Shown here piece after piece: positions 30,092-43,636 of a stretch of DNA of 64,000 nucleotides. The DNA comes from Enteractinococcus fodinae (GTDB lineage Bacteria > Actinomycetota > Actinomycetes > Actinomycetales > Micrococcaceae). The translations under genes and the position numbers were made by a program. Positions within the stretch are counted from its first letter, which is position 1, and each line of letters starts with the position of its first letter. The stretch lies in the NCBI RefSeq assembly GCF_031458395.1, contig NZ_JAVDYJ010000001.1:620001-684000 (forward strand). Reading direction: 5' to 3'. A model generated the notes under the pieces. The model was not told where the DNA came from. It was given only the letters and a program-made list of their open reading frames with translations, and made no database searches.

Positions 30092-30176
30092 GGCAGATTA
30101 CCCAAGCGGCCAACGGGGGCTGACTGTAAATCAGCTGGCATTGCCTTCACTGGTTCGAATCCAGTATCTGCCACCA
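30092..30176 (+). tRNA. tRNA-Tyr (anticodon GTA)
   Basis: The acceptor arms GGCAGAT and ATCTGCC pair, followed by discriminator A and an encoded CCA. The anticodon stem-loop GCTGA-CTGTAAA-TCAGC carries GTA. The T arm is ACTGG-TTCGAAT-CCAGT. The 13-base variable region makes it a type II tRNA, as expected for bacterial tRNA-Tyr. Confidence 0.97.
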
Positions 30177-30235: not shown

Positions 30236-30982
30236 TCAGTCCAGCAGCCGCCCGTGTTGGGCGACCACGGTCTGGAGTTCCTGCGCGCGGGCCGCAAAAG
30301 TCTCCGGTGGGAGATCGTGGGTAAACCCAGTAACTGTAACGGCCGCAACAATCCGGTCTTGACTGCCGAGCAGGGGCACGCCGATTGCTGTCATATCTTC
30401 ATCCCACTCATTATTCGACACCGCCCAGCCTCGCTGCCGCGCCAGCTCAAGATCAGCCATCAGAGCCGAAGTATCCGTGATGGTGTGAGGGGTAAACCGG
30501 TGCAGGGACTCGGAGGCTATCCGGTCACGGATCTGCTGGTCGGCAAATGCTAGTAAGACTTTGCCGCTACTTGTGGCGTGGCCAGGGGTACGACGCCCCA
30601 CATATTGCCGCGGAGTAAAGAATTTATCCGGTGGATCTGACTGTGCGATGTTCACCGCATAGGTGTCGTCCAAAATCGCCACGTTTGCTGTGAGATTGAA
30701 GTGCTCAGCCACTGCCTCCACGAGCAGTTGAGCGGATCTGGTCAGGTCGTATTGCGAATTCACGGAGCTAGCGAGCTGCAAGATGCCATGCCCAAGTTCA
30801 TAGGCTAAGCTGTCGGGCTGTCGAGTTACCAGCCGGTGTCGTTCAAGTGCTGTCAGCAGCCGCGAGGCAGTCGACTTATGGACGTGGAGCTCTTGGGCAA
30901 TCTGGGTAACCGTGGCGTGCTGTAGTCCGTTGAGGGTCCACAAGATCTGTAGTGCTCGGTCGACTGATTGGTTCGAGCTCAT
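30236..30982 (-). CDS. IclR family transcriptional regulator
   Basis: A 248-residue regulator. The N-terminal winged helix-turn-helix is ATVTQIAQELHVHKSTASRLLTALERHRLV. The C-terminal effector domain contains PGHATSSGKVLLAF and WAVSNNEWDEDMTAIGVPL. IclR proteins usually bind a catabolic intermediate and control an adjacent operon. It is divergent from the dimethylglycine-oxidase-like gene and is the only regulator in the creatinine island, so it is the best candidate for binding the GTTGC-N7-RCAAC repeats. The start at 30982 avoids an unrelated N-terminal extension. Confidence 0.92.
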   Translation of the reverse strand: MSSNQSVDRALQILWTLNGLQHATVTQIAQELHVHKSTASRLLTALERHRLVTRQPDSLAYELGHGILQLASSVNSQYDLTRSAQLLVEAVAEHFNLTANVAILDDTYAVNIAQSDPPDKFFTPRQYVGRRTPGHATSSGKVLLAFADQQIRDRIASESLHRFTPHTITDTSALMADLELARQRGWAVSNNEWDEDMTAIGVPLLGSQDRIVAAVTVTGFTHDLPPETFAARAQELQTVVAQHGRLLD

Positions 30983-31042: not shown

Positions 31043-31100
31043 TACACTGAGTGACACACATCACAGTTGCACTTTATGCATAAGTTGCAACATGCGCAAC
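31043..31100 (+). promoter_or_regulatory. Control region of the oxidase: promoter, CRP-like site, GTTGC-N7-GCAAC repeat
   Basis: A TACACT hexamer (31043-31048) has TTGTCT 18 bases upstream. Directly after it is AGTGA-N6-TCACA (31050-31065), nine of ten matches to the CRP/GlxR consensus TGTGA-N6-TCACA. Then comes the inverted repeat GTTGC-N7-GCAAC (31084-31100), which also occurs at the creatininase and creatinase promoters. A palindromic TTATGCATAA lies between them. The functional reading is inference. Confidence 0.5.
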
Positions 31101-31121
31101 CCCGGCTTGGAAGGTAGTTCG

Positions 31122-33617
31122 ATGGCGGTAACAGAACTCAAGATACTGATAATCGGCTCGGGTGTGGTTGGCGCTGCACTGGCTGATGAACTCACACAAC
31201 GCGGTGTACGAGACGTCACGGTCGTGGATCAAGGTCCCTTATACACCACCGGTGGCTCCTCATCCCATGCTCCGGGGTTTGTTTTTCAGGTCAATCCGTC
31301 CAAAGCGATGTCGGAGCTGGCCCAGCGCACACTGAACAAGCTTGATGAACTTGATCCTGGCGGCGACGACGAATGGCTGCTCAAACGCGTTGGCGGTCTT
31401 GAGCTTGCGTATACCGATGAGCAGATGCGGGAGTTGAAACGCCGACACGGTTTCGCTCAGTCCTGGGGTGTGGAATCAGCACTCATCGATGCCGACCGCG
31501 TGCACCACCTCTGGCCAGCGATCAACACCACCGATTTGGTCGGTGCGTTACACACCCCCACCGACGCCGTGGTGCACTCGGCGCGAGCCGTGGCTGCTCA
31601 AGCCAAGCGCGCGATAGCTCATGGGGCCACGTTTCACGAATACACCCAAGTGGTCGACCTGGTCACCGAAGACGGGGCCGTTACCGGCGTCAGGGTAGTC
31701 GATGCTCTAACCGGCGAGCGCCAACGTATCATCGCAGCGGATCTGGTGGTCGCGGCCGGCGGTATCTGGGGCCCTACGATCGGTCGATGGCTGGGTCGCA
31801 ATTTACCGATGCAACCCATTGAACACGGTTTGGGCTTCAGCCACGAACTGGATGAATTTCAAGATGCGGTCAATGATGAAGCTTGCGATTTCCCGATGGT
31901 CCGTCACCAGGGTGCAGGAATCTATTTCCGACAACAGGGCAAGCGCCTGGTCATCGGTGCCTATGAGCACCGCCCTCTTGAGGTGCGGCAAGATGAAATC
32001 GCAACACCAGCTGAAGCGCTCCGTACCGGACGCCAACCGTCCATCCATGAATTCACCTATGACGAATACGAACCCACCTGGCAAGAAATGCAACGGGTCT
32101 ACCCTTCCGTGCAAGAGGTTGGACTCGATACGCAGCGGTCCTTCAACGGCCTGTTTTCCTTTACCCCCGATGGCGGCCCATTGTTGGGGCCTTCACAAAC
32201 TGTGAACGGTGTATGGCTAGCCCAAGCAGTCTGGGTGACTGCCTCCGCGGGGGTGGCTCAAGTCGTAGCTGACTGGATCACCACCGGACACCCGGGAATC
32301 GATACGGCTGATCTCGATGTGGCTCGGTTTGATCGCCAGTTGCTCTCCCCGGAATTCGCCCGCCAAAAAGGGCTGGAATCTTACGACGAAGTGTATGACA
32401 TTCGCCATCCACGCGCGGCGTCGGTCAAGCTGCGTCGGCTACGCACCTCACCGTTTTATTTCCATCAGAAGCTCGCCGGGGCACACTTTGTTGAAGCCAA
32501 CGGTTGGGAGCGACCCCTATGGTTGGACGATAATCGTCGCGTGCTCGACGAAGCAGACCTGACCTTCCCGAAAATCCCGCCCTGGGATGCTGCTGAGTTC
32601 TCGCCGGTCGCCGTTGCTGAAGCGTGGGCGACTCGTCATCGTGTGGCCATGTATGACATGACGTCGCTGATGCGATTCCGGGTCGCTGGCCCTGACGCTA
32701 CGGCCCTGCTAGAGCGGGTGTGCACCAATACCATCGCTAAAGCGCCGGGCAGCGTCATCTATACGTTAATGCTCGATGAGCGCGGGGGCATCCTGTCGGA
32801 TATCACGGTGACGCGACTTGACGACGAGGAATACTTCCTGGGCGTCAATAGTCACCGCGATCTGGTGCATCTGCGCAACCAAGTTCGTGACAGTGAACGT
32901 GTCGCAATCACTGATGTCTCGGCGGGCACATGCTGTATCGGCCTGTGGGGCCCTCATGCGCGCGATGTGCTCAGTCAGCTGACCGATGACGACATCAGTC
33001 ACGAAGGGTTCGGGTACTTTACTGCAAAGCATCTCTACGTTGCAGCCGTGCCGGTCCTTGCCCTGCGGGTGTCCTATGTTGGGGAGCTCGGATGGGAACT
33101 GTATACCACCGCCGACCATGGGGCGCGTTTATGGGAGGAAATCCAGACGGCAGGGAATGCCTTTGGGCTTGTGATCGGTGGGCGGTTAGCCTTCAACGCC
33201 CTCCGGCTGGAAAAAGGCTATCGGGCGTATGGTGCCGATATTACGCGCGAACACCGACCCGAACAGGCCGGGCTAGGCTTTGCGGTGTCGAAAAATAAGA
33301 CCGCGTTTCTCGGCAAGGAAGCGCTGTCTACATCCCCGATGACTCAACGCCGGATGGTGTCGCTCACCTCAGATTTTCCCTTCGGGGCGCCGAATCCTGG
33401 TTCGCCGGTGCGTGATGCCGGCGGGCAACTGGTCGGCTATACCGCCTCGTCAGATTTCGGCTACACAGTCGGCAAGACCATTACTTACGCCTGGGTGGAT
33501 CCACAGTACGCACAACCTGACACGGAGCTGATCATCAAGCATTTTGATCGCTGTGTCCCAGCGGTGGTCGCAGCTGATCCCTTGTATGATCCAGCCGGAG
33601 AGAAGCTGCGCTGCTAA
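31122..33617 (+). CDS. Dimethylglycine oxidase / sarcosine dehydrogenase-like flavoprotein
   Basis: An 831-residue two-domain enzyme, nearly identical in length and motif order to Arthrobacter dimethylglycine oxidase (830 residues). The N-terminal DAO domain has IIGSGVVGAALADEL, the GGSSSHAPGFVFQ stretch that contains the flavin-attachment histidine in relatives, and GIYFRQQG with a conserved tyrosine. The C-terminal half is a GcvT-like tetrahydrofolate domain (SYVGELGWELY, LRLEKGYRAYGAD). It oxidises an N-methylglycine and transfers the methylene to folate. Here, downstream of creatinase chemistry, sarcosine is a likely substrate. The start at 31122 has AAGG seven bases upstream. Confidence 0.9.
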   Translation: MAVTELKILIIGSGVVGAALADELTQRGVRDVTVVDQGPLYTTGGSSSHAPGFVFQVNPSKAMSELAQRTLNKLDELDPGGDDEWLLKRVGGLELAYTDEQMRELKRRHGFAQSWGVESALIDADRVHHLWPAINTTDLVGALHTPTDAVVHSARAVAAQAKRAIAHGATFHEYTQVVDLVTEDGAVTGVRVVDALTGERQRIIAADLVVAAGGIWGPTIGRWLGRNLPMQPIEHGLGFSHELDEFQDAVNDEACDFPMVRHQGAGIYFRQQGKRLVIGAYEHRPLEVRQDEIATPAEALRTGRQPSIHEFTYDEYEPTWQEMQRVYPSVQEVGLDTQRSFNGLFSFTPDGGPLLGPSQTVNGVWLAQAVWVTASAGVAQVVADWITTGHPGIDTADLDVARFDRQLLSPEFARQKGLESYDEVYDIRHPRAASVKLRRLRTSPFYFHQKLAGAHFVEANGWERPLWLDDNRRVLDEADLTFPKIPPWDAAEFSPVAVAEAWATRHRVAMYDMTSLMRFRVAGPDATALLERVCTNTIAKAPGSVIYTLMLDERGGILSDITVTRLDDEEYFLGVNSHRDLVHLRNQVRDSERVAITDVSAGTCCIGLWGPHARDVLSQLTDDDISHEGFGYFTAKHLYVAAVPVLALRVSYVGELGWELYTTADHGARLWEEIQTAGNAFGLVIGGRLAFNALRLEKGYRAYGADITREHRPEQAGLGFAVSKNKTAFLGKEALSTSPMTQRRMVSLTSDFPFGAPNPGSPVRDAGGQLVGYTASSDFGYTVGKTITYAWVDPQYAQPDTELIIKHFDRCVPAVVAADPLYDPAGEKLRC

Positions 33618-33691
33618 CGCGGTCGCGAACCCTCAAATCACAGGGTCGGAACCGCACGGGTCCCCACCCTGGATGTGGTGTGGAGGGCTCG

Positions 33692-34954
33692 TTAACCGTA
33701 AGTCGGGTCTGCGGCTTTCGGAGCGCCCATGCCGGGATCAATTTGATGGGGACCGTTGGCTGATGGACGGACATCAAAATCGAAAATCGCCGTGGGAATG
33801 TAGACCGTCGAACACGAGTTTGGGATATCGACAACCGAGGAGAGCCGACCCTCGATCGGTGCGGCTCCTAGCAGGAGGTAGGCCTGCTCTTTGGAGTAAC
33901 CAAACTTCGATAAGTACTCGATGGCATGCAGAATCGCGCGCTGATATGACAGGTGCGAGTCAAGATAGCGCTGCTCACCGTCAAGGGTCACCGAGGTGCC
34001 CGAGAATGAAATCCATTCGCTGAAATGCGGGTCCTGACGTCCCGGCATGAAAATCGCATTTTCGGCCACCCCGTAGGTTTCCATGCCACCTTTAATCAGG
34101 TCCACGTGCAGCTCGATGTATCCTCCCATCTCAATGCCACCGCAAAAGGTGATCTCACCGTCCCCCTGGGAAAAGTGGAGGTCGCCAATCGAGAAGTTCG
34201 CGCCGTCGACGAAGACGGGATAAAACACTCTACTGCCCTTGGTGAGGTTTTTAATGTCCTGGTTGCCGCCATTTTCTCGTGGCGGCGCGGTCCGGGCGGC
34301 TTCTGAGGCCACGCGGTCCCAATCATCTTGGGAGATACCGCCCAGCACTGCCTCATCGGGTTCGGGCGGTAGCGCCAATGGGGGCACACGGTTCGGATCG
34401 GTGGCAATCAGATCGCCTTCGCGTTTATTCCACCTTGCTAATAGTTCAGGGCTGGGGGCGGTGGCCATAATGCCCGGGTGGATGAGGCCCTCGAATTTTA
34501 CTTCGGGGATGTGACGGGAGGTAGCCCACGGACCGTGGAAATCCCACACCGCCTTGTAGGCGTCAGGGAATTGCTCTACCAGGAAGCTGCCGCCGTTGGA
34601 TTTTGCAAAGATTCCGGTGTAACCCCATCCTTGACCGGCTAATGGGCCTTCTTCTTGAGGTATTGGTCCGACATCGAGAATATCGACGATGAGCAGGTCA
34701 CCGGGCTCGGCACCTTCGATACGAAACGGGCCTGTGAGTCCGTGAACTTTGTTCATCGGGGCGTTGAGAATATCATCTGCTGAATCATCATTTTTGATAG
34801 CCCCGTCAAACCATTCACGGGAGTCTACTCTGAAGCTATCACCGGGCTTGACGGTTGCTACCGGCGGGATCTCGGGATGGTATCGATTGTGGCCGACCTT
34901 TTCTTGGTCAGTAAAGGGTTTGTCAGAATTCAGGGGGAACAGATTGCCAAGCAT
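33692..34954 (-). CDS. fmdA: Formamidase / acetamidase family amidohydrolase (copy 1)
   Basis: A 420-residue enzyme of the FmdA/AmdA family that hydrolyses formamide or small amides to the acid plus ammonia. The family core is visible as HNRYHPEIPPVATVKPGD, REWFDGAIKNDDSADD, the GWGYTGIFAKSNGGSFL stretch, PPRENGGNQDIKNL, DLHFSQGDGEITFCGGIEMGG and LSSVVDIPNSCSTVYIPT. GGAAGG lies six bases before the ATG at 34954; a longer frame runs through fmdB and is rejected. fmdB lies 52 bases upstream on the same strand. Confidence 0.94.
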   Translation of the reverse strand: MLGNLFPLNSDKPFTDQEKVGHNRYHPEIPPVATVKPGDSFRVDSREWFDGAIKNDDSADDILNAPMNKVHGLTGPFRIEGAEPGDLLIVDILDVGPIPQEEGPLAGQGWGYTGIFAKSNGGSFLVEQFPDAYKAVWDFHGPWATSRHIPEVKFEGLIHPGIMATAPSPELLARWNKREGDLIATDPNRVPPLALPPEPDEAVLGGISQDDWDRVASEAARTAPPRENGGNQDIKNLTKGSRVFYPVFVDGANFSIGDLHFSQGDGEITFCGGIEMGGYIELHVDLIKGGMETYGVAENAIFMPGRQDPHFSEWISFSGTSVTLDGEQRYLDSHLSYQRAILHAIEYLSKFGYSKEQAYLLLGAAPIEGRLSSVVDIPNSCSTVYIPTAIFDFDVRPSANGPHQIDPGMGAPKAADPTYG

Positions 34955-35006
34955 GCTGGACCTTCCTCTGCGTGAATAAACAGCTACGAGTTGGACAGAC
35001 TGCCAA

Positions 35007-35300
35007 TTAGGGCCGAGGCAGTTTCTGGTGCAGTGGGTTGGTGGAGTATTGCGGTGAGTGGTGGCGCCCATTGGGAGTACCGGTAAGGGAATTGACCACC
35101 TGGGGCGTTTCCGCGGTGGCGTTGGTGGCATCGAGAATTCGCATTTGCGCGGAATTACGTTGTGAGGGTCCGATGGCTGGTAACTTACTGGTGGCCCGTT
35201 GACCACAGTGCGGGCAATCCAGGGTGTCCGGTTTGTCATGCATCGTAAAGAATGCTTCGAAAACATCTCCTTGCGGACACCTGTAATCGTAGAGGGGCAT
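35007..35300 (-). CDS. fmdB: FmdB-type zinc ribbon protein
   Basis: A 97-residue protein starting MPLYDYRCPQGDVFEAFF, the FmdB N terminus, with a second pair CPHCG at residues 29-32. In most members the first knuckle is CXXC; here Cys8 is followed by Pro-Gln-Gly, so the expected second cysteine is Gly11. The rest is polar and disordered-looking. FmdB is a putative regulator of formamidase in Methylophilus, and its position upstream of fmdA fits that pairing. AGAGGA lies eight bases before the start. Confidence 0.85.
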   Translation of the reverse strand: MPLYDYRCPQGDVFEAFFTMHDKPDTLDCPHCGQRATSKLPAIGPSQRNSAQMRILDATNATAETPQVVNSLTGTPNGRHHSPQYSTNPLHQKLPRP

Positions 35301-35348
35301 GGAAAAGTTCCTCTCGTTGACGACATGCGTCTGACAATTTGAGCCAAG

Positions 35349-35371
35349 CACAATGCGCCGGGGCGCACAAT
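35349..35371. promoter_or_regulatory. Inverted repeat upstream of fmdB
   Basis: TGCGCC-GG-GGCGCA (35354-35367) is flanked by two direct copies of CACAAT (35349-35354 and 35366-35371), about 50 bases before the fmdB start. It could be an operator. No gene ends here, so a terminator role is unlikely. Confidence 0.35.
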
Positions 35372-35538
35372 GGGGCTGACTTGGGCTGGTATCGTCGTTG
35401 GTCTTTCAACGGTGCTAAAGCATGCGGTCCGCTCGGCTAAGGGTAGTGACGTAACCGGTGAGATACGCCGGGTATTTCATTGAACAAACTGGGCTCACCA
35501 TCGGATGCTGGCCGGTTGTAGCTGGTTAAACAGCGGCG

Positions 35539-35544
35539 TAGGGT
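35539..35544 (+). promoter_or_regulatory. Candidate leaderless -10 (TAGGGT)
   Basis: TAGGGT is followed by six bases and the ATG at 35551 of the DUF488 gene. Confidence 0.55.
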
Positions 35545-35550
35545 ACGCAT

Positions 35551-35919
35551 ATGAGCAGACCGAAAATCGTGCTGAAGCGGGTCTATGATGATGCTGCTGA
35601 AGAGGACGGCCAGCGCGTGCTGGTCGATCGATTATGGCTCCGCGGACTCAGCAAATCGCAGGCACAGATCGATTTGTGGCTAAAAGACATTGCCCCGAGC
35701 CCTGAACTGCGCACCTGGTGGGACCACGACCCAGACCAGTTTGATACTTTTGCGCAGCGATATGAACACGAGCTCGAAGATGAGGATCACACCGAAGCCG
35801 TCGCGCAGCTGCTCTCTCTGATACATGATCACGACCGGGTGACGCTGCTCTATGCAGCCACAGACGAGCAGGTCAACCATGCACGGATACTCCAGGACTA
35901 CCTCAGGCGGAAAAGCTAA
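35551..35919 (+). CDS. DUF488 family protein
   Basis: A 122-residue protein with the DUF488 pattern: LKRVYDDAAEEDGQRVLVDRLWLRGLSK at the start, LWLKDIAPSPELRTWWDHDPDQF in the middle, and VTLLYAATDEQVNHARIL near the end. The function of the family is unknown. The TAA stop overlaps the ATG of the next small gene (TAATG), implying coupled translation of the two products. A leaderless promoter precedes it. Confidence 0.87.
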   Translation: MSRPKIVLKRVYDDAAEEDGQRVLVDRLWLRGLSKSQAQIDLWLKDIAPSPELRTWWDHDPDQFDTFAQRYEHELEDEDHTEAVAQLLSLIHDHDRVTLLYAATDEQVNHARILQDYLRRKS

Positions 35920-36074
35920 TGGGCGACCCCGCATGTTGGCTTGACCAGCTGTGTCCCGAATGCTCTGCCATGCTGGAGCCGCCCGCCGAAGGTGCGACCA
36001 CAGTGCAATGCTGGCGTTGCAAAGCCACCGTTCGATTTGGTGACGAGGGCCCCGAAGTCCTGCCCGATTCGTAG
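35919..36074 (+). CDS. Small zinc-ribbon protein (51 residues)
   Basis: This short frame begins in the stop codon of the DUF488 gene (TAATG). The product carries two CXXC pairs, CPEC at residues 12-15 and CWRC at residues 31-34, spaced like a zinc ribbon, followed by KATVRFGDEGPEV. The coupling and the paired cysteines make it a likely real gene. No specific family is recognised, and it may act with the DUF488 protein. Confidence 0.62.
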   Translation: MGDPACWLDQLCPECSAMLEPPAEGATTVQCWRCKATVRFGDEGPEVLPDS

Positions 36075-36148
36075 AGTGTCGCTCCCTGCGGTATCGTCGG
36101 TCGCTGCACGAGTTGTTGTGGCTACCTTACCTTCGTACTCCAGCAGGC

Positions 36149-36207
36149 TTGACTGTGAGATAGACCACTCGATATATTTGCTGCAACACTGTTGCGTTAA
36201 AGGCAAC
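36149..36207 (+). promoter_or_regulatory. Creatininase promoter with operator-like repeats
   Basis: TTGACT (36149-36154), an 18-base spacer and TATATT (36173-36178) form a good promoter. The spacer begins GTGAG and includes a half CRP-like site TGTGA (36154-36158). GCAAC-N3-GTTGC-N7-GCAAC (36183-36207) starts four bases after the -10, over the expected transcription start. The same arrangement occurs at the creatinase promoter. Confidence 0.65.
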
Positions 36208-36282
36208 TCAGTGTTCGAAGTTCAGTCCAGCATTCTGCTGGCCGTCACCGCCCCAGCTAGTTGGGGAAGCCAAGGAGAGCAC

Positions 36283-37083
36283 ATGTCTTCAGTCTTTCTC
36301 GAAGATCTCGATGCAGATACGTATGCGGCCTATCTTCGTCAGTCCACGTCCACGGTCATCATCCCCACCGGTGCCACCGAACAGCATGGACCGCATATGC
36401 CGATCGGCGTCGATGCGATGTTGTCATCAGACATCGCAGCTGCCGTTGCCCAACAGACTGGTGCCCTGGTGGCCCCGGTTTTTGCCTATGGGTACAAGTC
36501 ACAGCCGCGTTCGGGTGGAGGCGACCATCGGATTGGCACCACCAGTTTGAGCGCAGCCACGCTCATTGGTCTGGTGGAAGACGTGGCCTCGTCCTTCCTC
36601 GCGCAAGGCTTCAAGAATGTGGTCGTGCTCAATGGGCACTACGAGAATTATCAATTTGTCTACGAGGGCTTGGACAAAGCCGTCAAACAGGCCCACACGG
36701 CTGGCAATGCTGGACGGGCCATGCTGATGTCTTATTGGGATTTTGTCGACGACCAGACCCTCGAAGCTGTTTTCCCAGATGGATTCCTCGGCTGGGACAT
36801 CGAACACGGCGGAGTGCTGGAGACCTCGCTGATGTTATTACTCCACCCTGAAAAGGTCGACATGGATCGGGTGGTCGATCATCCGCCGGCTCAGCTGACC
36901 TCTTACGATGTTTTTCCCGAAGATCCCACACGGACCCCGGCCAGCGGGTGCCTCTCCTCTGCCACAGGAGCCACGGCGGCAAAAGGCCAGCTCTTACTCG
37001 ATGCGGTGACGCGTGCGGTCTCCGATGCCTTGATCTCCGAACTTCACCTCCCCCTTCCAGTAGCCTCACGAAAGGCAAACTAA
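36283..37083 (+). CDS. Creatininase family protein (creatinine amidohydrolase)
   Basis: A 266-residue metal-dependent amidohydrolase that opens creatinine to creatine. The metal-ligand pattern is IPTGATEQHGPHMPIGVDA near residues 28-45 (Glu33, His35, Asp44), followed by LNGHYEN and GWDIEHGGVLETS. The ATG at 36283 has AAGGAG six bases upstream; the longer in-frame extension lacks family similarity. Members can act on other cyclic amides, but creatinase and a BCCT carrier next to it support creatinine here. The BCCT gene follows after one base. Confidence 0.9.
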   Translation: MSSVFLEDLDADTYAAYLRQSTSTVIIPTGATEQHGPHMPIGVDAMLSSDIAAAVAQQTGALVAPVFAYGYKSQPRSGGGDHRIGTTSLSAATLIGLVEDVASSFLAQGFKNVVVLNGHYENYQFVYEGLDKAVKQAHTAGNAGRAMLMSYWDFVDDQTLEAVFPDGFLGWDIEHGGVLETSLMLLLHPEKVDMDRVVDHPPAQLTSYDVFPEDPTRTPASGCLSSATGATAAKGQLLLDAVTRAVSDALISELHLPLPVASRKAN

Positions 37084-37084
37084 C

Positions 37085-38869
37085 ATGTCTAAGGGACAAG
37101 TAACGATGAAACCTCCGGATGCCGACGAACCATACGCAGGCCAACAACCGGCAGATAATAGCGACAAATCACCGGTTGAAGTGCCACGTTTTATGGGTCG
37201 CCAGATCCCGCCGTTAGACCGCGTGTTGATCATGGTCATTCCGCCGGTGCTCATCGTGGCGGCGGTCATTTGGGTCATCGTGGACTCAGACGGAGCCGCG
37301 CAGGCCATCTCGACGATGCGTACCTTCGTGACCAGTGAATTCACCTGGCTATTTATTCTTTACTCCCTGGTCGCGCTCATCGTATGTATCTGGGCTGCTT
37401 TTAGTAAGTTTGGTAAAGTCCGCCTCGGCGGGCCCGCAGCTAAACCCTTGCACGGTCGTTTCGCCTGGTACTCCATGTTGTTCGCCTGCGGGCAGGGCAT
37501 CGGCCTGATCTTCTGGTCCGTGGCCGAACCGATCATGCTCCGGGACGAAAACCCGGTCATTCCGGTCACGCCCACTAGCGGAGCAGAAGAAGGCGCCATT
37601 GTCTGGACCTACTTCCACTGGGGTCTGACCGCTTGGGCCATGTACTGTGTCGTGGCGCTCTGTCTAGCGTACTCACACCACAACCTCGGCAAGACCTTAA
37701 CCTTCCGTGAGGCCACGGTCGATATCTTGCCCAAGAAAGCACAACGTCCAGCTGGTGTCGTGATCGAGTTGCTGGCCATTATCGCCACCGTGCTCGGATT
37801 GGCCACGTCCTTCGGGTTCGCTGCAATGCAATTCAGCTCGGGCGTGACCTCTTTTACCGGCCTGGACTCGGGGCCGGGCATGTGGATGATCGTGATCGGG
37901 GTATTCGCCACCATTACCGGCATCTCCGCCTATATCGGCATCAATAAAGGTATGGCCCGCCTGTCAGTGATCAACTCGATTCTGAGCATCGTGCTGGTGG
38001 GGGCGGTCTTTATTTTCGGACCGACGATCTACATGATCTCGACCATGACGCAAACCTTCGGTTCCTTTGGCCAGCATTTCTTATCGATGAGCTTCTTCAC
38101 CGATTTCCAGCTCGCAGCAACCTCGCTGGATACCTGGCAGGACAGCTGGAACGGTTGGTGGACGGTCTTCATTTGGTGCTGGGTTATTGCCTTCTCCCCA
38201 TTTGTTGCAGGCTTCGTCGCCCGGATCTCGCGTGGTCGTACCATTCGCGAATTCGTTATCGGTGTCACCGTGGTGCCATCGTTGATTGTGATGTTCTGGG
38301 TCGGCGTCATCGGCGTCGCCTCGATCTACTATGATGACCAAACCGGACGAGCCATCAGCGAGGGTGTCGCCAGTGATACGTCCAGCGGGTTGTTTCTGAT
38401 GTTGGACCAACTGCCTTTGGTGGGCACGGTCATGTTGGTTGTGGCAACGATCTTGGTGGGGACCTACTACGTCACGTCGCTCGATGCCGGGTCCTATGCC
38501 CTGGGTGAGTTCGTCACTGCCCCGCGCAAATCCAGCCCGTTTTTCCGCGTCATCCTCGTCATTAGCATTGGCACAGTAGCCACCGTGTTGCTCTCCATCG
38601 GCGGAGAAGCCGTCGTGGATACGGTTCAAACCGGCACGATTATCGGTGCCTTCCCGTTCTCCTTTGTGATCTTGCTGATGATCGCCAACTTCATCCGACG
38701 ACTGCACAAGCGCAATCAACAAACGCGCAAAATGGAGCGCGCCATTAACGATCCCGATCCCGACCGAGTACTTATTCCAGATCCGGAAGGGGAAGGTTTT
38801 GTGGAGCCTGCGGAGCAGGACACCACGGTGGCTTCTCGACCGCCTCGTGACGAGACACCTCCCTCCTAA
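37085..38869 (+). CDS. BCCT family transporter (betaine/carnitine/choline type, perhaps creatine or creatinine)
   Basis: A 594-residue transporter with about 12 spans. The quaternary-ammonium-binding regions WTYFHWGLTAWAMYC and WWTVFIWCWVIAFSPFVAGFVARISRGRTIREF are the BCCT signatures. The N terminus is about 40 polar residues and the C terminus another charged tail, both typical of osmo-sensing members. It directly follows creatininase, so the substrate is probably a creatine-pathway compound or a betaine that is demethylated to dimethylglycine. It ends before a strong hairpin at 38904. Confidence 0.9.
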   Translation: MSKGQVTMKPPDADEPYAGQQPADNSDKSPVEVPRFMGRQIPPLDRVLIMVIPPVLIVAAVIWVIVDSDGAAQAISTMRTFVTSEFTWLFILYSLVALIVCIWAAFSKFGKVRLGGPAAKPLHGRFAWYSMLFACGQGIGLIFWSVAEPIMLRDENPVIPVTPTSGAEEGAIVWTYFHWGLTAWAMYCVVALCLAYSHHNLGKTLTFREATVDILPKKAQRPAGVVIELLAIIATVLGLATSFGFAAMQFSSGVTSFTGLDSGPGMWMIVIGVFATITGISAYIGINKGMARLSVINSILSIVLVGAVFIFGPTIYMISTMTQTFGSFGQHFLSMSFFTDFQLAATSLDTWQDSWNGWWTVFIWCWVIAFSPFVAGFVARISRGRTIREFVIGVTVVPSLIVMFWVGVIGVASIYYDDQTGRAISEGVASDTSSGLFLMLDQLPLVGTVMLVVATILVGTYYVTSLDAGSYALGEFVTAPRKSSPFFRVILVISIGTVATVLLSIGGEAVVDTVQTGTIIGAFPFSFVILLMIANFIRRLHKRNQQTRKMERAINDPDPDRVLIPDPEGEGFVEPAEQDTTVASRPPRDETPPS

Positions 38870-38903
38870 ACCATAGATCGACCGCACTGTAAGCGGTCAG
38901 TCC

Positions 38904-38940
38904 AAGCGGGCGTAACCCAGCAATCGGGTTGCGCCCGCTT
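38904..38940 (+). terminator. Terminator-like hairpin after the BCCT gene
   Basis: A 15-base-pair stem (38904-38918 with 38926-38940, one G-U pair) closes a seven-base loop. It lies 34 bases after the BCCT stop but lacks a T run. Confidence 0.6.
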
Positions 38941-39012
38941 TGCTGTGTGGCGCGATTCGAGCTGGTCATGCGGCACTCTCAAAGCCGGCCCGAAAATACT
39001 GTGGCCGCGTGC

Positions 39013-39083
39013 TTGACAGTGAGTGATCTCACACCTATCCTGAATGCAACGGTGTTGCGCTGAATACAACTTCTGCGTGTTGC
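39013..39083 (+). promoter_or_regulatory. Creatinase promoter with CRP-like site and operator-like repeats
   Basis: TTGACA (39013-39018), 17 bases and TATCCT (39036-39041) form a strong promoter. AGTGA-N6-TCACA (39018-39033) lies between the two boxes. GCAAC-N3-GTTGC-N7-ACAAC (39046-39070) begins four bases after the -10, with a further GTTGC at 39079. Order and spacing mirror the creatininase promoter. The rest of the 320-base gap before creatinase (38870-39189) holds the hairpin at 38904 and no gene. Confidence 0.7.
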
Positions 39084-39189: not shown

Positions 39190-40431
39190 ATGGCTAATGT
39201 CACCAGCGTCGGCGAACTTGAGCGCTTGAAGACCCTCCATAACGGCGAAAAACAACCACTGACCTTCTCGGACGCCGAATTCGAACGCCGCCTGAGCGGG
39301 CTGCGCTCAATTATGGCCGAAAAAGACCTTGACGCTGTCATTCTGACCAGCTACCAGAACATCAAGTACTACTCCGATTTTTTGTTCACCTACTTCGGCC
39401 GCTCCTACGCGTTGGTAGTCACCCAGCAGGAATCCATCACGATCACCGCCAACATTGATGCGGGCATGCCATGGCGCACCAGCTACGGTGACAACATCGT
39501 TTACACCGACTGGAAGCGCGACAACTTCTACTACGCGTTACAGGAAGCACTGAACCGTCAGGGCATCAGCGCCAAGCGCATCGGCGTCGAAGACGACACC
39601 GTGCCGACCATGCAGCGCAAAGCCCTGCAGGATACCTTCCCGGACGCCGAACTGCTGGACGTTTCCCAGGCCGCCATGCGCCAGCGCATGATCAAATCCG
39701 CCGAAGAAATCGAAGTCATCAAACACGGCGCTCGGATTGGTGACATCGGCGGTGAAGCCATCAAGGCTGCCATCCGTGAAGGCATCACCGAATACGAAGT
39801 CGCCCTCATCGGCGTCGAAGCGATGACCCACGAGATCGCCAAGACCTTCCCGGATCGCGAAGTCCGTGACACCTGGGTCTGGTTCCAGTCGGGTATTAAC
39901 ACTGACGGCGCACACAACTGGGCGACCACTCGCAAACTGCAGCGCGGGGATCTGCTGTCGCTCAACTGCTTCCCGATGACCTCGGGTTATTACACCGCTT
40001 TGGAACGCACCCTGACCCTGGGCCAGCCAGATGCCCGGACGCTGGAATTGTGGAAGGCTAACGTCGAGGTCCACGAAGCCGGTCTTGAATTGATCAAACC
40101 GGGCGCGGTCTGCAAGGACATCGCCCACGAACTTAACGAAATCTTCATCGGTCACGGACTGCTATCAAACCGGACCTTTGGCTATGGCCACTCCTTCGGT
40201 GTGCTGTCCCACTACTACGGCCGTGAAGCCGGGTTGGAATTGCGCGAAGACATCGACACCGTCCTGGAGCCCGGCATGGTCGTATCGATGGAACCGATGA
40301 TCACCGTGATGGAAGGTGAACCCGGTGCCGGTGGCTACCGTGAACACGACATCTTGGTCGTTGGCGAAGACGGTGCCGAGAACATCACCAAGTTCCCATA
40401 CGGTCCAGAACACAACATCATCGATGCCTAA
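39190..40431 (+). CDS. Creatinase (creatine amidinohydrolase)
   Basis: A 413-residue enzyme of the pita-bread fold, close in length to known creatinases (403-411). It splits creatine into sarcosine and urea. The N-terminal stretch TSYQNIKYYSDFLF, the catalytic histidine in SGINTDGAHN (His242, the counterpart of His232), NCFPMTSGYYTALERTL, TFGYGHSFGVLSHYYGREAGLELREDIDTVLEPGMVVSMEP and PYGPEHNII all match. Metal ligands of the M24 peptidases are not conserved, as expected for creatinase. A purine-rich AAAGGAG site precedes the ATG. Confidence 0.95.
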   Translation: MANVTSVGELERLKTLHNGEKQPLTFSDAEFERRLSGLRSIMAEKDLDAVILTSYQNIKYYSDFLFTYFGRSYALVVTQQESITITANIDAGMPWRTSYGDNIVYTDWKRDNFYYALQEALNRQGISAKRIGVEDDTVPTMQRKALQDTFPDAELLDVSQAAMRQRMIKSAEEIEVIKHGARIGDIGGEAIKAAIREGITEYEVALIGVEAMTHEIAKTFPDREVRDTWVWFQSGINTDGAHNWATTRKLQRGDLLSLNCFPMTSGYYTALERTLTLGQPDARTLELWKANVEVHEAGLELIKPGAVCKDIAHELNEIFIGHGLLSNRTFGYGHSFGVLSHYYGREAGLELREDIDTVLEPGMVVSMEPMITVMEGEPGAGGYREHDILVVGEDGAENITKFPYGPEHNIIDA

Positions 40432-40515: not shown

Positions 40516-41763
40516 TTATCGCGGTATCTGTGTTTCGGGCCCGCCCAGGGGCTGGCGCATGCTAAAGGCCTTGGCCAACCGGTGACGCAACCCGGTGGCA
40601 AGCACGGAGCGCAAGACAACGTCGCGAACTGTGACGGTCAAGGGACGCATCGGTCGTCCCAGGGCCATGTTGAGCTCGGCCTGTCGAGCCACGGCTCGCG
40701 CTGCGGACAGTCGTTGGTGTGCGAAGCGCTGCACGGATTCCAGGTGCTGCAGCGGCGCGGGGTTGCGTTCGGCCAGCATGTGTACGATCAGCGGGGCCAG
40801 ATGCCAGGCATCGAGCCAGCCCAACGTCATGCCCTGACCTCCGATGGGACTGACTTCATGGGCCGCATCTCCGATAATGACACATCGCCCGGCTGCCATC
40901 TGGTGCGCTAGGCGCCGACGGACAGCAAAAGCGCTCATCATCGTTGACGTGCTGGGATCGACCTGCTCACCGGTGCGTTCGGCAATGAGACGCGTTAAGG
41001 TTTCTGGTCTCTCTGGCAGGAATTGGGTGCCGGTGTGCGCGACCCAGCGCCGCATATTGCCCGGCAACGGAAACGACTCAACGACTCCGGTGGGGGCTAA
41101 AAAGATTGCGGCGGCCGCATCATCGTGGTGGGGCACGACCCGTGCGTGGTGTTGTGCGAAATCGCCCATGATGTAGGTGTCGTCTAAGGGCTGGGTGTGC
41201 AGGCCGATGCCGGCGGTGCGGCGCACCAGACTGCGTGGCCCATCGGCACCGATCACGAGATCGGCAGACCAGGTGCGTTCAACGGCCTGGCCAGGCTCGA
41301 TCGTGCTGCGGGCATGCACCTGAACTTTGGCTCCGGGACGGTCGGTGCGTGCGGGATCCCTGACCTCGAGCACCTCCCACCCCGGGTGCAGTGCGCCTGG
41401 CGACAGGTCGGATAGCCGCTGGGACAACAGGGCTTCAGTGCGGTTCTGCGGCAACGTTAGAACAAAGGGCCGATCCGGCCAGGCCTGTTCGAAACTCAGA
41501 CCGCCGAGCCGACGGCCACGACTATAGGCAGCACCGGTATGCACCCGCTGTCCTTCGGCCACGGCGGCCTCTTCGAGCTGCACAGCGTTGAGCACTGCGA
41601 GCGCCGGGGGGTGCAGTCCGATGGCTCGAGAATACTGTCGCGGGTGCGTACGACGTTCCAGTACGGCGACGTCCACCCCCTGTTGGGCCAGCAAACTGGC
41701 CATGACTAAGCCGACCGGGCCGCCACCGACGATCAGCACCTGGCAGGTGTGCTGTTGGGTCAT
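40516..41763 (-). CDS. FAD-dependent aromatic hydroxylase/monooxygenase
   Basis: A 415-residue class A flavoprotein monooxygenase. VLIVGGGPVGLVMASLLAQQG is the FAD fingerprint, VIGADGPRSLVRR the DG motif, and CVIIGDAAHEVSPIGGQGMTLGWLDAWHLAP the GD motif. It is the last gene of a type III polyketide synthase operon and overlaps the methyltransferase gene by four bases (ATGA). By comparison with Streptomyces srsABC it may hydroxylate an alkylresorcinol to a quinone precursor. Confidence 0.88.
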   Translation of the reverse strand: MTQQHTCQVLIVGGGPVGLVMASLLAQQGVDVAVLERRTHPRQYSRAIGLHPPALAVLNAVQLEEAAVAEGQRVHTGAAYSRGRRLGGLSFEQAWPDRPFVLTLPQNRTEALLSQRLSDLSPGALHPGWEVLEVRDPARTDRPGAKVQVHARSTIEPGQAVERTWSADLVIGADGPRSLVRRTAGIGLHTQPLDDTYIMGDFAQHHARVVPHHDDAAAAIFLAPTGVVESFPLPGNMRRWVAHTGTQFLPERPETLTRLIAERTGEQVDPSTSTMMSAFAVRRRLAHQMAAGRCVIIGDAAHEVSPIGGQGMTLGWLDAWHLAPLIVHMLAERNPAPLQHLESVQRFAHQRLSAARAVARQAELNMALGRPMRPLTVTVRDVVLRSVLATGLRHRLAKAFSMRQPLGGPETQIPR

Positions 41764-42497
41764 GGTCGGTTGGGCTCCGTGGCCGCAGGTGAGACGGCGT
41801 CGTAGATGAGCAGGTTGCGCCAGGGATGCTGGGCATGGACGCGCCAGCCAGCAGGTGCCACAGCGTGAAGTTCCAGGGCGGTATAGCTGCGCCGGATGGA
41901 GGTCAGACCATCTTCACGAATAAACGACCCCCGGAAGAACGGCCGGGTGCCCACCGAGAACAGCGTATAGGCGATGCGACTGCGCCGAATATCGCTGTGC
42001 ACAACACGGCTCTTTGCTAATTGTTCAGAGTCGTGGAGAAGGCTCTGAAAGTCGGTGGCTGTGAGGTGATGCAACAGGTGGTTGGAGATCACCACATCAA
42101 AGCTGCGGCCCTGGGACACGAGTTCTGAACTCAACGCCGGACAGAATTCCATATCGACTGACGGGTGGTGGCGCATGGCCCACGCGTAGGCTCGCTGATC
42201 CGGATCGGCGGCGGTGATCTTCAACCTGAACCCGTCACGGTGTGCCCAGCGGGCAATTGCCCGGGTGACGTCTGCACCCCCGGCGCCAATGTCCAACAGG
42301 GTGTTCAGCCGATCGTGACGCAACACCGGGCGCACGTGGTGGCGATAGGCCTGCTGCCAACCGGCCACCAGCCGATTGACGGTCTCAAACTGTGCATAGG
42401 TGCGGTGCAGCGCGGCTATATCGCACTGCGGGTCATCCATGCGTTCTGTCGCCTCATGATCCCGATGGGCGAGGTCTCGCAACAGCGGAAACCTCAC
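41760..42497 (-). CDS. Class I SAM-dependent methyltransferase
   Basis: A 245-residue methyltransferase. Motif I is LLDIGAGGADVTRAIARWA, motif II the acidic ITAADPDQRAYAWA, and VVISNHLLHHL is the post-II strand. The GTG at 42497 is chosen because GGGGAG lies six bases upstream and it overlaps the polyketide synthase stop by four bases (GTGA). Sandwiched between a type III synthase and a hydroxylase, it probably O- or C-methylates the ring product. Confidence 0.87.
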   Translation of the reverse strand: MRFPLLRDLAHRDHEATERMDDPQCDIAALHRTYAQFETVNRLVAGWQQAYRHHVRPVLRHDRLNTLLDIGAGGADVTRAIARWAHRDGFRLKITAADPDQRAYAWAMRHHPSVDMEFCPALSSELVSQGRSFDVVISNHLLHHLTATDFQSLLHDSEQLAKSRVVHSDIRRSRIAYTLFSVGTRPFFRGSFIREDGLTSIRRSYTALELHAVAPAGWRVHAQHPWRNLLIYDAVSPAATEPNRP

Positions 42498-43636
42498 GAA
42501 TTTCTCCCCACGGTCGTGAACAGGCCGGTTTCCACGGTCAGGCCCGGCCCGAAGGCCATACTGCACACCCGTTCTCCCGCCTTAGAGTCTGGGTCATCCA
42601 AGATCGTTTTGAGGACGAACATGACGGTGGCACTGCTCATATTGCCGTAGTGCTGCAGGACATCGCGTGAGGGCTCCAGTTGGGCGGGGTCCAGCTCAAG
42701 CTTGGCTTCGACTTTATCGAGGATGCTGCGCCCGCCGGGGTGGATCGCCCAGTGCTCGATATCGCGATATTGACGATCCGTCAGCGACGCATCGTGTGCC
42801 AGTAGGGGTGCGAGTGCGTCGACAATGTGGGCGTCAATAATCTTTGGCACATAGGTTCCCAAGACCATTTCGAACCCGTTGTCACCGATGTTCCAGGCCA
42901 TGGCTTCTTCCCCGACGGGAGTCAGTACGGTTTCAAAATGATCTAGCTGTAGCGCACGCCCACCATCGTGGTCACGGCCGGTAATGACGGCAGCTGCGGC
43001 ACCGTCGCCAAATAGTGAGGAACCCAGGATCGTGTCGGGATCATCTGAGACGCGCACGTGAATACTGCACAGCTCGACGCTCACCACCAGCACGACGGCG
43101 TCTGGGTTCGCATCACAGATCGTCTTGGCCTGGCGCATGGCGGGAAATGCCGCATAGCAGCCCATGAATCCCAGATGGCAACGCTGCACAGCAGGATCCA
43201 GGTCCAGGCCGCGGACGATGAGGTAGTCCGGGCCGGGGGAGAAGAACCCGGTGCACGACACGGTGATGACATGGGTGACGTCGGTTTTGTCGATACCGTC
43301 GGCTGATGCCAGGGCTGCCGCAGCGGCATCGACGTACAGGCGCGAAGCTTCTTGCACGTAAATCTCGTTCCGTGCCCCCGTGGTGGGGTTCAGAATCTGC
43401 CGGGTTGCGGCATCAAAAAATTGTGGGGTGTTTGAGCCGTCGGCATCGGCTGAGAGATCCATTTCGGTTACGGCACTGTGGCGGCGTTCGATGCCGGAAG
43501 AGTCGAACGCTGCTCCCACCAGGCGAGTCGCCAGTCGGCTCATCCCGGGCTGGGACGCGAAAACCTCACGAACTTGGTCTTGATGCAACACGGTGTCGGG
43601 GACGGCAACTTCTAAGGATCTCAGCGTAACGGGCAT
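42494..43636 (-). CDS. Type III polyketide synthase (chalcone synthase-like)
   Basis: A 380-residue thiolase-fold enzyme with the full catalytic triad: Cys160 in LGFMGCYAAF, His299 in HWAIHPGGRSILD and Asn332 in HYGNMSSATV. SCTGFFSPGPDYLIVRGLDL and SSLFGDGAAAAVITG are also typical. It condenses an acyl-CoA starter with malonyl-CoA to a pyrone or resorcinol; the starter cannot be read with certainty. First gene of an operon coupled by 4-base overlaps. No clear ribosome binding site precedes its ATG. Confidence 0.92.
   Translation of the reverse strand: MPVTLRSLEVAVPDTVLHQDQVREVFASQPGMSRLATRLVGAAFDSSGIERRHSAVTEMDLSADADGSNTPQFFDAATRQILNPTTGARNEIYVQEASRLYVDAAAAALASADGIDKTDVTHVITVSCTGFFSPGPDYLIVRGLDLDPAVQRCHLGFMGCYAAFPAMRQAKTICDANPDAVVLVVSVELCSIHVRVSDDPDTILGSSLFGDGAAAAVITGRDHDGGRALQLDHFETVLTPVGEEAMAWNIGDNGFEMVLGTYVPKIIDAHIVDALAPLLAHDASLTDRQYRDIEHWAIHPGGRSILDKVEAKLELDPAQLEPSRDVLQHYGNMSSATVMFVLKTILDDPDSKAGERVCSMAFGPGLTVETGLFTTVGRNS

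Follow-up and report, generated by a model that had tools for sequence, protein, structure and literature searches.

The window analysed here is a 64,000-nucleotide stretch of Enteractinococcus fodinae DNA (bases 620001-684000 of the 2.93 Mb genome), and our subject is a set of inverted repeats at three promoters of a creatine and dimethylglycine locus within it. The gene run of the locus comprises an IclR-family regulator (IclR1; 30236-30982, minus strand), a dimethylglycine oxidase-like enzyme (DMGO; 31122-33617, plus strand), an FmdA-type amidase, a zinc-ribbon protein, a DUF488 protein, a creatininase (36283-37083) with an adjoining BCCT transporter (37085-38869), and a creatinase (39190-40431), the last three on the plus strand. 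IclR1 was recognised by its Pfam domains HTH_IclR and IclR_C (48.9 and 113.5 bits, both passing the Pfam cut-off), DMGO by the Pfam domains DAO, FAO_M, GCV_T and GCV_T_C and by its best PDB match (1pj5, dimethylglycine oxidase, E 8.9e-215), creatininase by the NCBIfam equivalog of that name (339.6 bits against a cut-off of 235), the transporter by Pfam BCCT, and creatinase by its best PDB match (1chm, creatine amidinohydrolase, E 6.7e-169). A second IclR-family protein, IclR2, is encoded at genome positions 690803-691594, 6.8 kb beyond the window end; it is 27% identical to IclR1 and both of its domains also pass the cut-off (60.6 and 114.5 bits). Our analysis points to these two regulators as the probable users of one GTTGC half-site, in different arrangements, at the three promoters.

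The core order IclR1, oxidase, FmdA, creatininase, BCCT transporter and creatinase is also found in five relatives (L039 to L043) and, as far as the BCCT gene at a contig end, in L044; two further stretches (L045, L046) are interrupted by contig ends. Because this order is common to the relatives, the locus is, judged by gene order, a standing part of the genus in the genomes compared and no recent island. "Yaniella" is used as the genus label for the group of the host and its close relatives in all counts, Y. halotolerans being L061. A tRNA-Tyr gene (30092-30176) directly adjoins IclR1; since relatives share this neighbourhood, it gives no evidence of recent insertion.

The inverted repeat GTTGC-N7-RCAAC matches exactly in the window at 31084-31100, 36191-36207 and 39054-39070 and nowhere else, just where the original prediction had placed it at the oxidase, creatininase and creatinase promoters. 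These three sites give five strand-matches against a mean of 0.51 in shuffled sequence, with five or more reached in 1 of 100 shuffles. No excess is seen in the window once a mismatch is allowed: there are 11 matches against an expected 8.95, a count reached in 36 of 100 shuffles. The whole genome holds 8 distinct exact sites (11 strand-matches, compared with 30 for the pattern read backwards), three of them at these promoters and the other five all inside open reading frames of 241 to 534 amino acids, so that the comparison of coding regions with promoters, named in the original prediction as a possible refutation, does not refute it.

The three promoter sites are of two kinds. Between IclR1 and DMGO lies a two-box operator, GTTGC-N7-GCAAC (31084-31100, no strand), identified by pattern scan, promoter alignment and cross-locus linkage; a third box would match there in one of five letters. 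A degenerate second palindrome with two mismatches (31066-31082, no strand) was found by the sequence scan 18 nt from the first. The creatininase and creatinase promoters carry three-box operators, GCAAC-N3-GTTGC-N7-GCAAC at 36183-36207 and GCAAC-N3-GTTGC-N7-ACAAC at 39046-39070 (both plus strand; pattern counts and alignment), which we propose as IclR2 sites. As had been described earlier, both arrays begin four bases past the predicted -10 boxes, TATATT for creatininase and TATCCT for creatinase. The pattern GCAAC-N3-GTTGC-N7-RCAAC occurs exactly twice in the genome, at these two promoters, and its reversed control not at all.

The promoters themselves were read from the sequence. The predicted DMGO promoter (TGACAC, 17 bases, TATGCA; 31052-31080, plus strand) is also seen in aligned relatives, and the predicted IclR1 promoter (TTGCGC, 17 bases, TAAAGT; 31071-31099, minus strand) has its -35 box within the oxidase operator, which spans the predicted start of the oxidase transcript as well. 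The predicted creatininase promoter (TTGACT, 18 bases, TATATT; 36149-36178, plus strand) is conserved in 7 Yaniella genomes and the predicted creatinase promoter (TTGACA, 17 bases, TATCCT; 39013-39041, plus strand) in 6. In the aligned Yaniella promoters the boxes are kept while the flanks drift (8 genomes for the oxidase, 7 for creatininase, 6 for creatinase), and the conservation in relatives on which the earlier reading depended is thus borne out. The notion of one repressor operator survives as far as a conserved IclR-type operator over the predicted transcription start is concerned; it is not supported as a single operator, given the two-box and three-box forms.

To follow the two-box form, we collected loci by their resemblance to the IclR1 alignment, with the recognition helix as one of two search peptides, and took the best 80 of 584 relatives, 77 of them outside Yaniella and some of them close kin. 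By genus names these loci come from several orders of Actinomycetes. The motif was taken from the window and then tested on the fetched loci, counting as IclR flank the 350 bp ahead of the IclR gene and the 400 bp behind it. Across the 77 non-Yaniella loci 43 exact copies of GTTGC-N7-GCAAC fall in IclR flanks (57,750 bp), and 4 fall in the remaining 1,399,949 bp. When spacings of 2 to 12 were tried, only 7 was enriched in the flanks, the others occurring there once or not at all; when all 1024 half-sites were ranked, the runner-up was GTTGT, with 7 in IclR flanks and 0 elsewhere. DMGO adjoins the IclR gene in 25 of the 80 loci, and a site with at most one mismatch is present in 23 of these and in 41 of the 55 others. 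On a quick tree of 99 IclR proteins the site label, which includes one-mismatch sites and near copies, is clustered (14 changes against a shuffled mean of 25.5, none of 500 shuffles as low). IclR1 very probably reads the oxidase site, as the linkage across the 77 loci indicates, and to that extent the naming of the protein at 30236 as the regulator was apt. Near such two-box sites there are genes such as those for Rieske oxygenase parts (in L071) and for a BCCT transporter (in L132), and for this reason the older role looks like the use of betaine-like compounds.

The creatininase and creatinase sites, which the original prediction had assigned to the same protein, go with IclR2 in other genera. 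Of 394 genomes in the class, 8 have creatinase at E 1e-60 and 7 have IclR2, each of the 7 together with creatinase; in the order, IclR2 is present in 41 of 396 genomes. The creatinase loci of six other class genomes were widened (L226 to L231), L166 with the G398 creatinase, which begins at a contig end, being left out. In all six an IclR ortholog 45-55% identical to IclR2 adjoins creatinase, and all six contain three-box sites, in most of them ahead of a transporter-creatinase or transporter-creatininase-creatinase run. The idea that only Yaniella has the motif at creatinase is ruled out by these wider stretches: the earlier ones had about 1.5 kb of flank, and most of the wider ones show the site upstream of a transporter gene that precedes creatinase.

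In total 34 IclR2 loci were studied, 28 new and 6 earlier, with 8 of the 41 order genomes left out, all of them weaker or partial matches (G636, G681, G721, G729, G801, G810, G899 and G907). A three-box site was counted where the palindrome had at most one mismatch and the third box at least four of five letters. Creatinase is present in 33 of the 34 loci, and every one of these 33 has a three-box site; in L285, the sole locus lacking creatinase and one cut by a contig end, there is no such site. DMGO was not encountered in the 34 stretches. For 50 of the 52 three-box sites a creA, crnA, MFS or BCCT start follows within 350 bp, covering 32 of the 33 loci. The same scan gave these 52 sites in 440,279 bp of IclR2 loci against 7 in 1,457,699 bp of the 77 IclR1 loci used as control, and all 7 control sites carry a mismatch together with a third box of four out of five letters. 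Two genomes, G416 and G498, have IclR2 and a three-box site and contain no IclR1-type protein at E 1e-30.

Within Yaniella, RCAAC-N3-GTTGC-N7-RCAAC has 22 exact matches in nine genomes (8 of the nine have one) and none for the reversed control; 21 of them closely precede creatininase (7), creatinase (8) or a ProP-like MFS transporter (6). The remaining match (G073 C94 27904-27928, L299) has no creatininase, creatinase or MFS transporter within the 3 kb examined. The ProP-like transporter constitutes a fourth promoter of this kind in sister genomes: orthologs (84-100%) are found in seven of them, and all seven have a site upstream, six being exact three-box sites (L196 6829, L198 7205, L199 650, L200 1982, L201 9555, L209 53) and one a palindrome with a mismatch (G110). 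Five genomes have contigs that show its position, which is between IclR2 and the glyA-sox cluster; in L199 (G125) it is split at a contig end. In the host genome other genes occupy this position, and the best-matching stretch elsewhere has 44% identity and in-frame stop codons; the ProP-like gene and its site therefore appear to have been lost together.

From the position of the sites and from the pathway we infer repression rather than activation, and the following mode of action. IclR1 would bind the two-box palindrome between its own gene and the DMGO gene and shut off both, until released by a methylated glycine, that is, dimethylglycine or sarcosine. IclR2 would bind the three-box sites that overlie the transcription start of creatinase and of the operon formed by creatininase and its transporter, and in sister species also the site at the ProP-like transporter; it would hold creatine use off as long as substrate is lacking. 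Both creatinase and dimethylglycine oxidation yield sarcosine, which makes it a natural candidate for a shared signal. We lean, if only slightly, toward a wider form of this proposal, in which IclR2 and a fixed three-box operator would govern creatine and creatinine uptake and breakdown in many actinobacterial genera, and in which the box arrangement alone would separate two related repressors in Yaniella.

The recognition helices agree with this to a limited degree. IclR1 has His35-Lys36, and IclR2 also has His-Lys at the same place of the helix-turn-helix (HTH). PMC8222616 links His at HTH position 27 to G/C at motif position 10/22, and Lys at position 28 to G/C at 7/25; should positions 7 and 10 correspond to the first and fourth box bases, as we read the gap scheme, both proteins would fit a GTTGC box. 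This lends weak support, since the same letters occur in IclR proteins with no nearby site, and the letters of the recognition helix do not separate site-bearing IclR proteins from the rest.

Chance or low-complexity repeats near promoters would be in keeping with the one-mismatch motif being no commoner in the window than expected; the controlled whole-genome and cross-genus counts and the promoter alignment contradict this so strongly that we find it hardly credible. It is very unlikely, in our judgement, that IclR1 binds all three sites and so couples creatinine breakdown to sarcosine and dimethylglycine oxidation. Such an arrangement would account for the identical half-site and spacing at the three sites and for the presence of IclR1 beside the locus in relatives whose contigs cover it, and its family is indeed tied to the GTTGC-N7-GCAAC palindrome, but other genera pair the three-box sites with IclR2 and creatinase, including genomes without an IclR1-type protein, and the third box is absent from exact IclR1-flank sites. 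The third box is complete, with five of five letters, at 19 Yaniella sites (7 at creatininase, 6 at creatinase and 6 at MFS genes) and matches in at most three of five at all 46 exact IclR1-flank sites. This separation, kept at 46/46 and at the 19/19 Yaniella three-box sites checked, suggests distinct readers and speaks against cross-talk, in which IclR1 and IclR2, perhaps with a paralog encoded near genome position 2106519, would bind all three operators and the locus would answer several signals. The common half-site, the similar recognition helices (HKSTASR in IclR1, HKSSVSR in IclR2) and the Yaniella creatine genes adjoining the IclR1 locus favour cross-talk, which we consider rather improbable.

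Several observations nevertheless weigh against two regulators each with operators of its own. With the GTTGC half-site common to both forms, IclR1 may bind three-box sites and IclR2 the oxidase site. IclR1, not IclR2, adjoins these promoters in Yaniella, where IclR2 lies about 31 kb from creatinase. In L231 the sites of a creatinase locus with IclR2 lie away from any recognised start. Two of the 7 control sites (L078, L124) are IclR1-flank sites whose third box has four of five letters once a mismatch is allowed, so the split between the arrangements is sharp and not perfect. The CRP-like sites described below, found at all Yaniella promoters scanned, are present with at most two mismatches at 22 of the 52 three-box sites of other genera (21 of 4000 random 50-mers). 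Finally, tandem diverged sites, with a CRP-like stretch ahead, stand between the paralog near 2106519 and its operon, and cross-binding may occur among IclR1, IclR2 and this paralog. The paralog (L056:7700-10300) is 44% identical to IclR1, and the operon that it adjoins includes a GCV_T-type protein and a luciferase-like monooxygenase.

A second element is common to the promoters. TGTGA-N6-TCACA is the consensus of CRP/GlxR-type sites, and CRP-like sites, conserved in relatives, were found by sequence scan on the plus strand of the DMGO promoter (AGTGA-N6-TCACA, 31050-31065), the creatininase promoter (36154-36169, two mismatches here and one in four relatives) and the creatinase promoter (AGTGA-N6-TCACA, 39018-39033); none of the three is a perfect match. 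At up to two mismatches the consensus is found in 27 of 27 Yaniella promoters and in 12 of 4000 random 45-mers of the window. The -35 stretch common to the creatininase and creatinase promoters, pointed out earlier and present at both as GCTTGAC[T/A]GTGAG, can be understood from this: GCTTGACWGTGAG joins a putative -35 box to the left half-site of a CRP-like TGTGA-N6-TCACA site, and it is common to the two promoters because such a site overlaps each of them. The genome has two strong matches to a CRP-type HTH. The placement of the site around the -35 box and spacer suggests repression, and a CRP-type protein bound there would add a second control common to the promoters.

The view that no motif of this form had been published has to be abandoned, as both arrangements fit published IclR motif classes. 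The main text of PMC8222616 describes a group 1 subgroup GTT-11-AAC with the full consensus GTTYCRYW3RYGRAAC and with tandem palindromes 18-22 nt apart. Our sites have the same GTT, 11 bases and AAC (GTTGC-N7-GCAAC at 31084 and 36191, with the right box ACAAC at 39054); unlike the GTTYC...GRAAC of the subgroup they have G, by construction of our pattern, and no pyrimidine as fourth base, and therefore represent a variant of it. In the same text, 32 orthologous IclR groups have three-box sites whose boxes alternate in direction, each combining one pair in group 1 and one in group 2 arrangement, with PcaU named as precedent; the creatininase and creatinase sites show these alternating directions and pairings, and the oxidase site does not. 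The three-box sites here stand at creatine and creatinine genes, of which no mention was found in the main text of PMC8222616, and that text likewise has no match for sarcosine, betaine or dimethylglycine.

Regulators named for creatine or sarcosine genes in the sections consulted are AmtR (PMC8864220) and SoxR of Arthrobacter sp. TE1826, SoxR of Bacillus thuringiensis and SouR (PMC4941409), none of which is called IclR there. AmtR of Corynebacterium glutamicum ATCC 14067 is likewise an actinobacterial repressor of creatine and creatinine genes, but as presented in PMC8864220 it belongs to the TetR family, responds to a nitrogen signal and binds CTAT-N6-ATAG. AmtR control was considered for the present locus and set aside, the window having 0 exact matches to that site. 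SoxR of TE1826, as described in PMC4941409, is a negative regulator clustered with creatininase and creatinase genes; it differs in being called LysR family and in having been shown to act on soxA. No report of an IclR-controlled creatine regulon was found among the matches listed for broader searches; those on IclR with creatinase or with sarcosine oxidase gave none on such regulation, judged by title or listing, and nothing was found that pairs IclR with dimethylglycine oxidase. The motif form is thus known, and its link to creatine, creatinine and DMGO genes is new as far as our searches show.

If our reading is true, the IclR1/IclR2 pair of Yaniella, with one half-site in two arrangements, would serve as a natural test of the two dimerisation modes proposed for IclR proteins and would make that published idea directly testable. 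It also illustrates that a regulator next door need not be the one at work: for two of the three sites, the protein more likely to read them is encoded just outside the window. Creatininase, creatinase and sarcosine oxidase are used in the measurement of serum creatinine, as described in PMC4941409, and with such a sharply defined operator the regulator could serve as a part in sensors for creatine or sarcosine, provided that its inducer is identified.

Two neighbouring regions deserve mention. Just beyond the window end lies a second creatinase-like M24 protein (L194:1363-2640, genome 685363-686640), 58% identical to creatinase, for which no operator site at up to one mismatch was found within 4.2 kb of L167. 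The region 40516-43636, adjoining creatinase, encodes an FAD monooxygenase, a methyltransferase and a chalcone or stilbene synthase-like (type III polyketide) protein.

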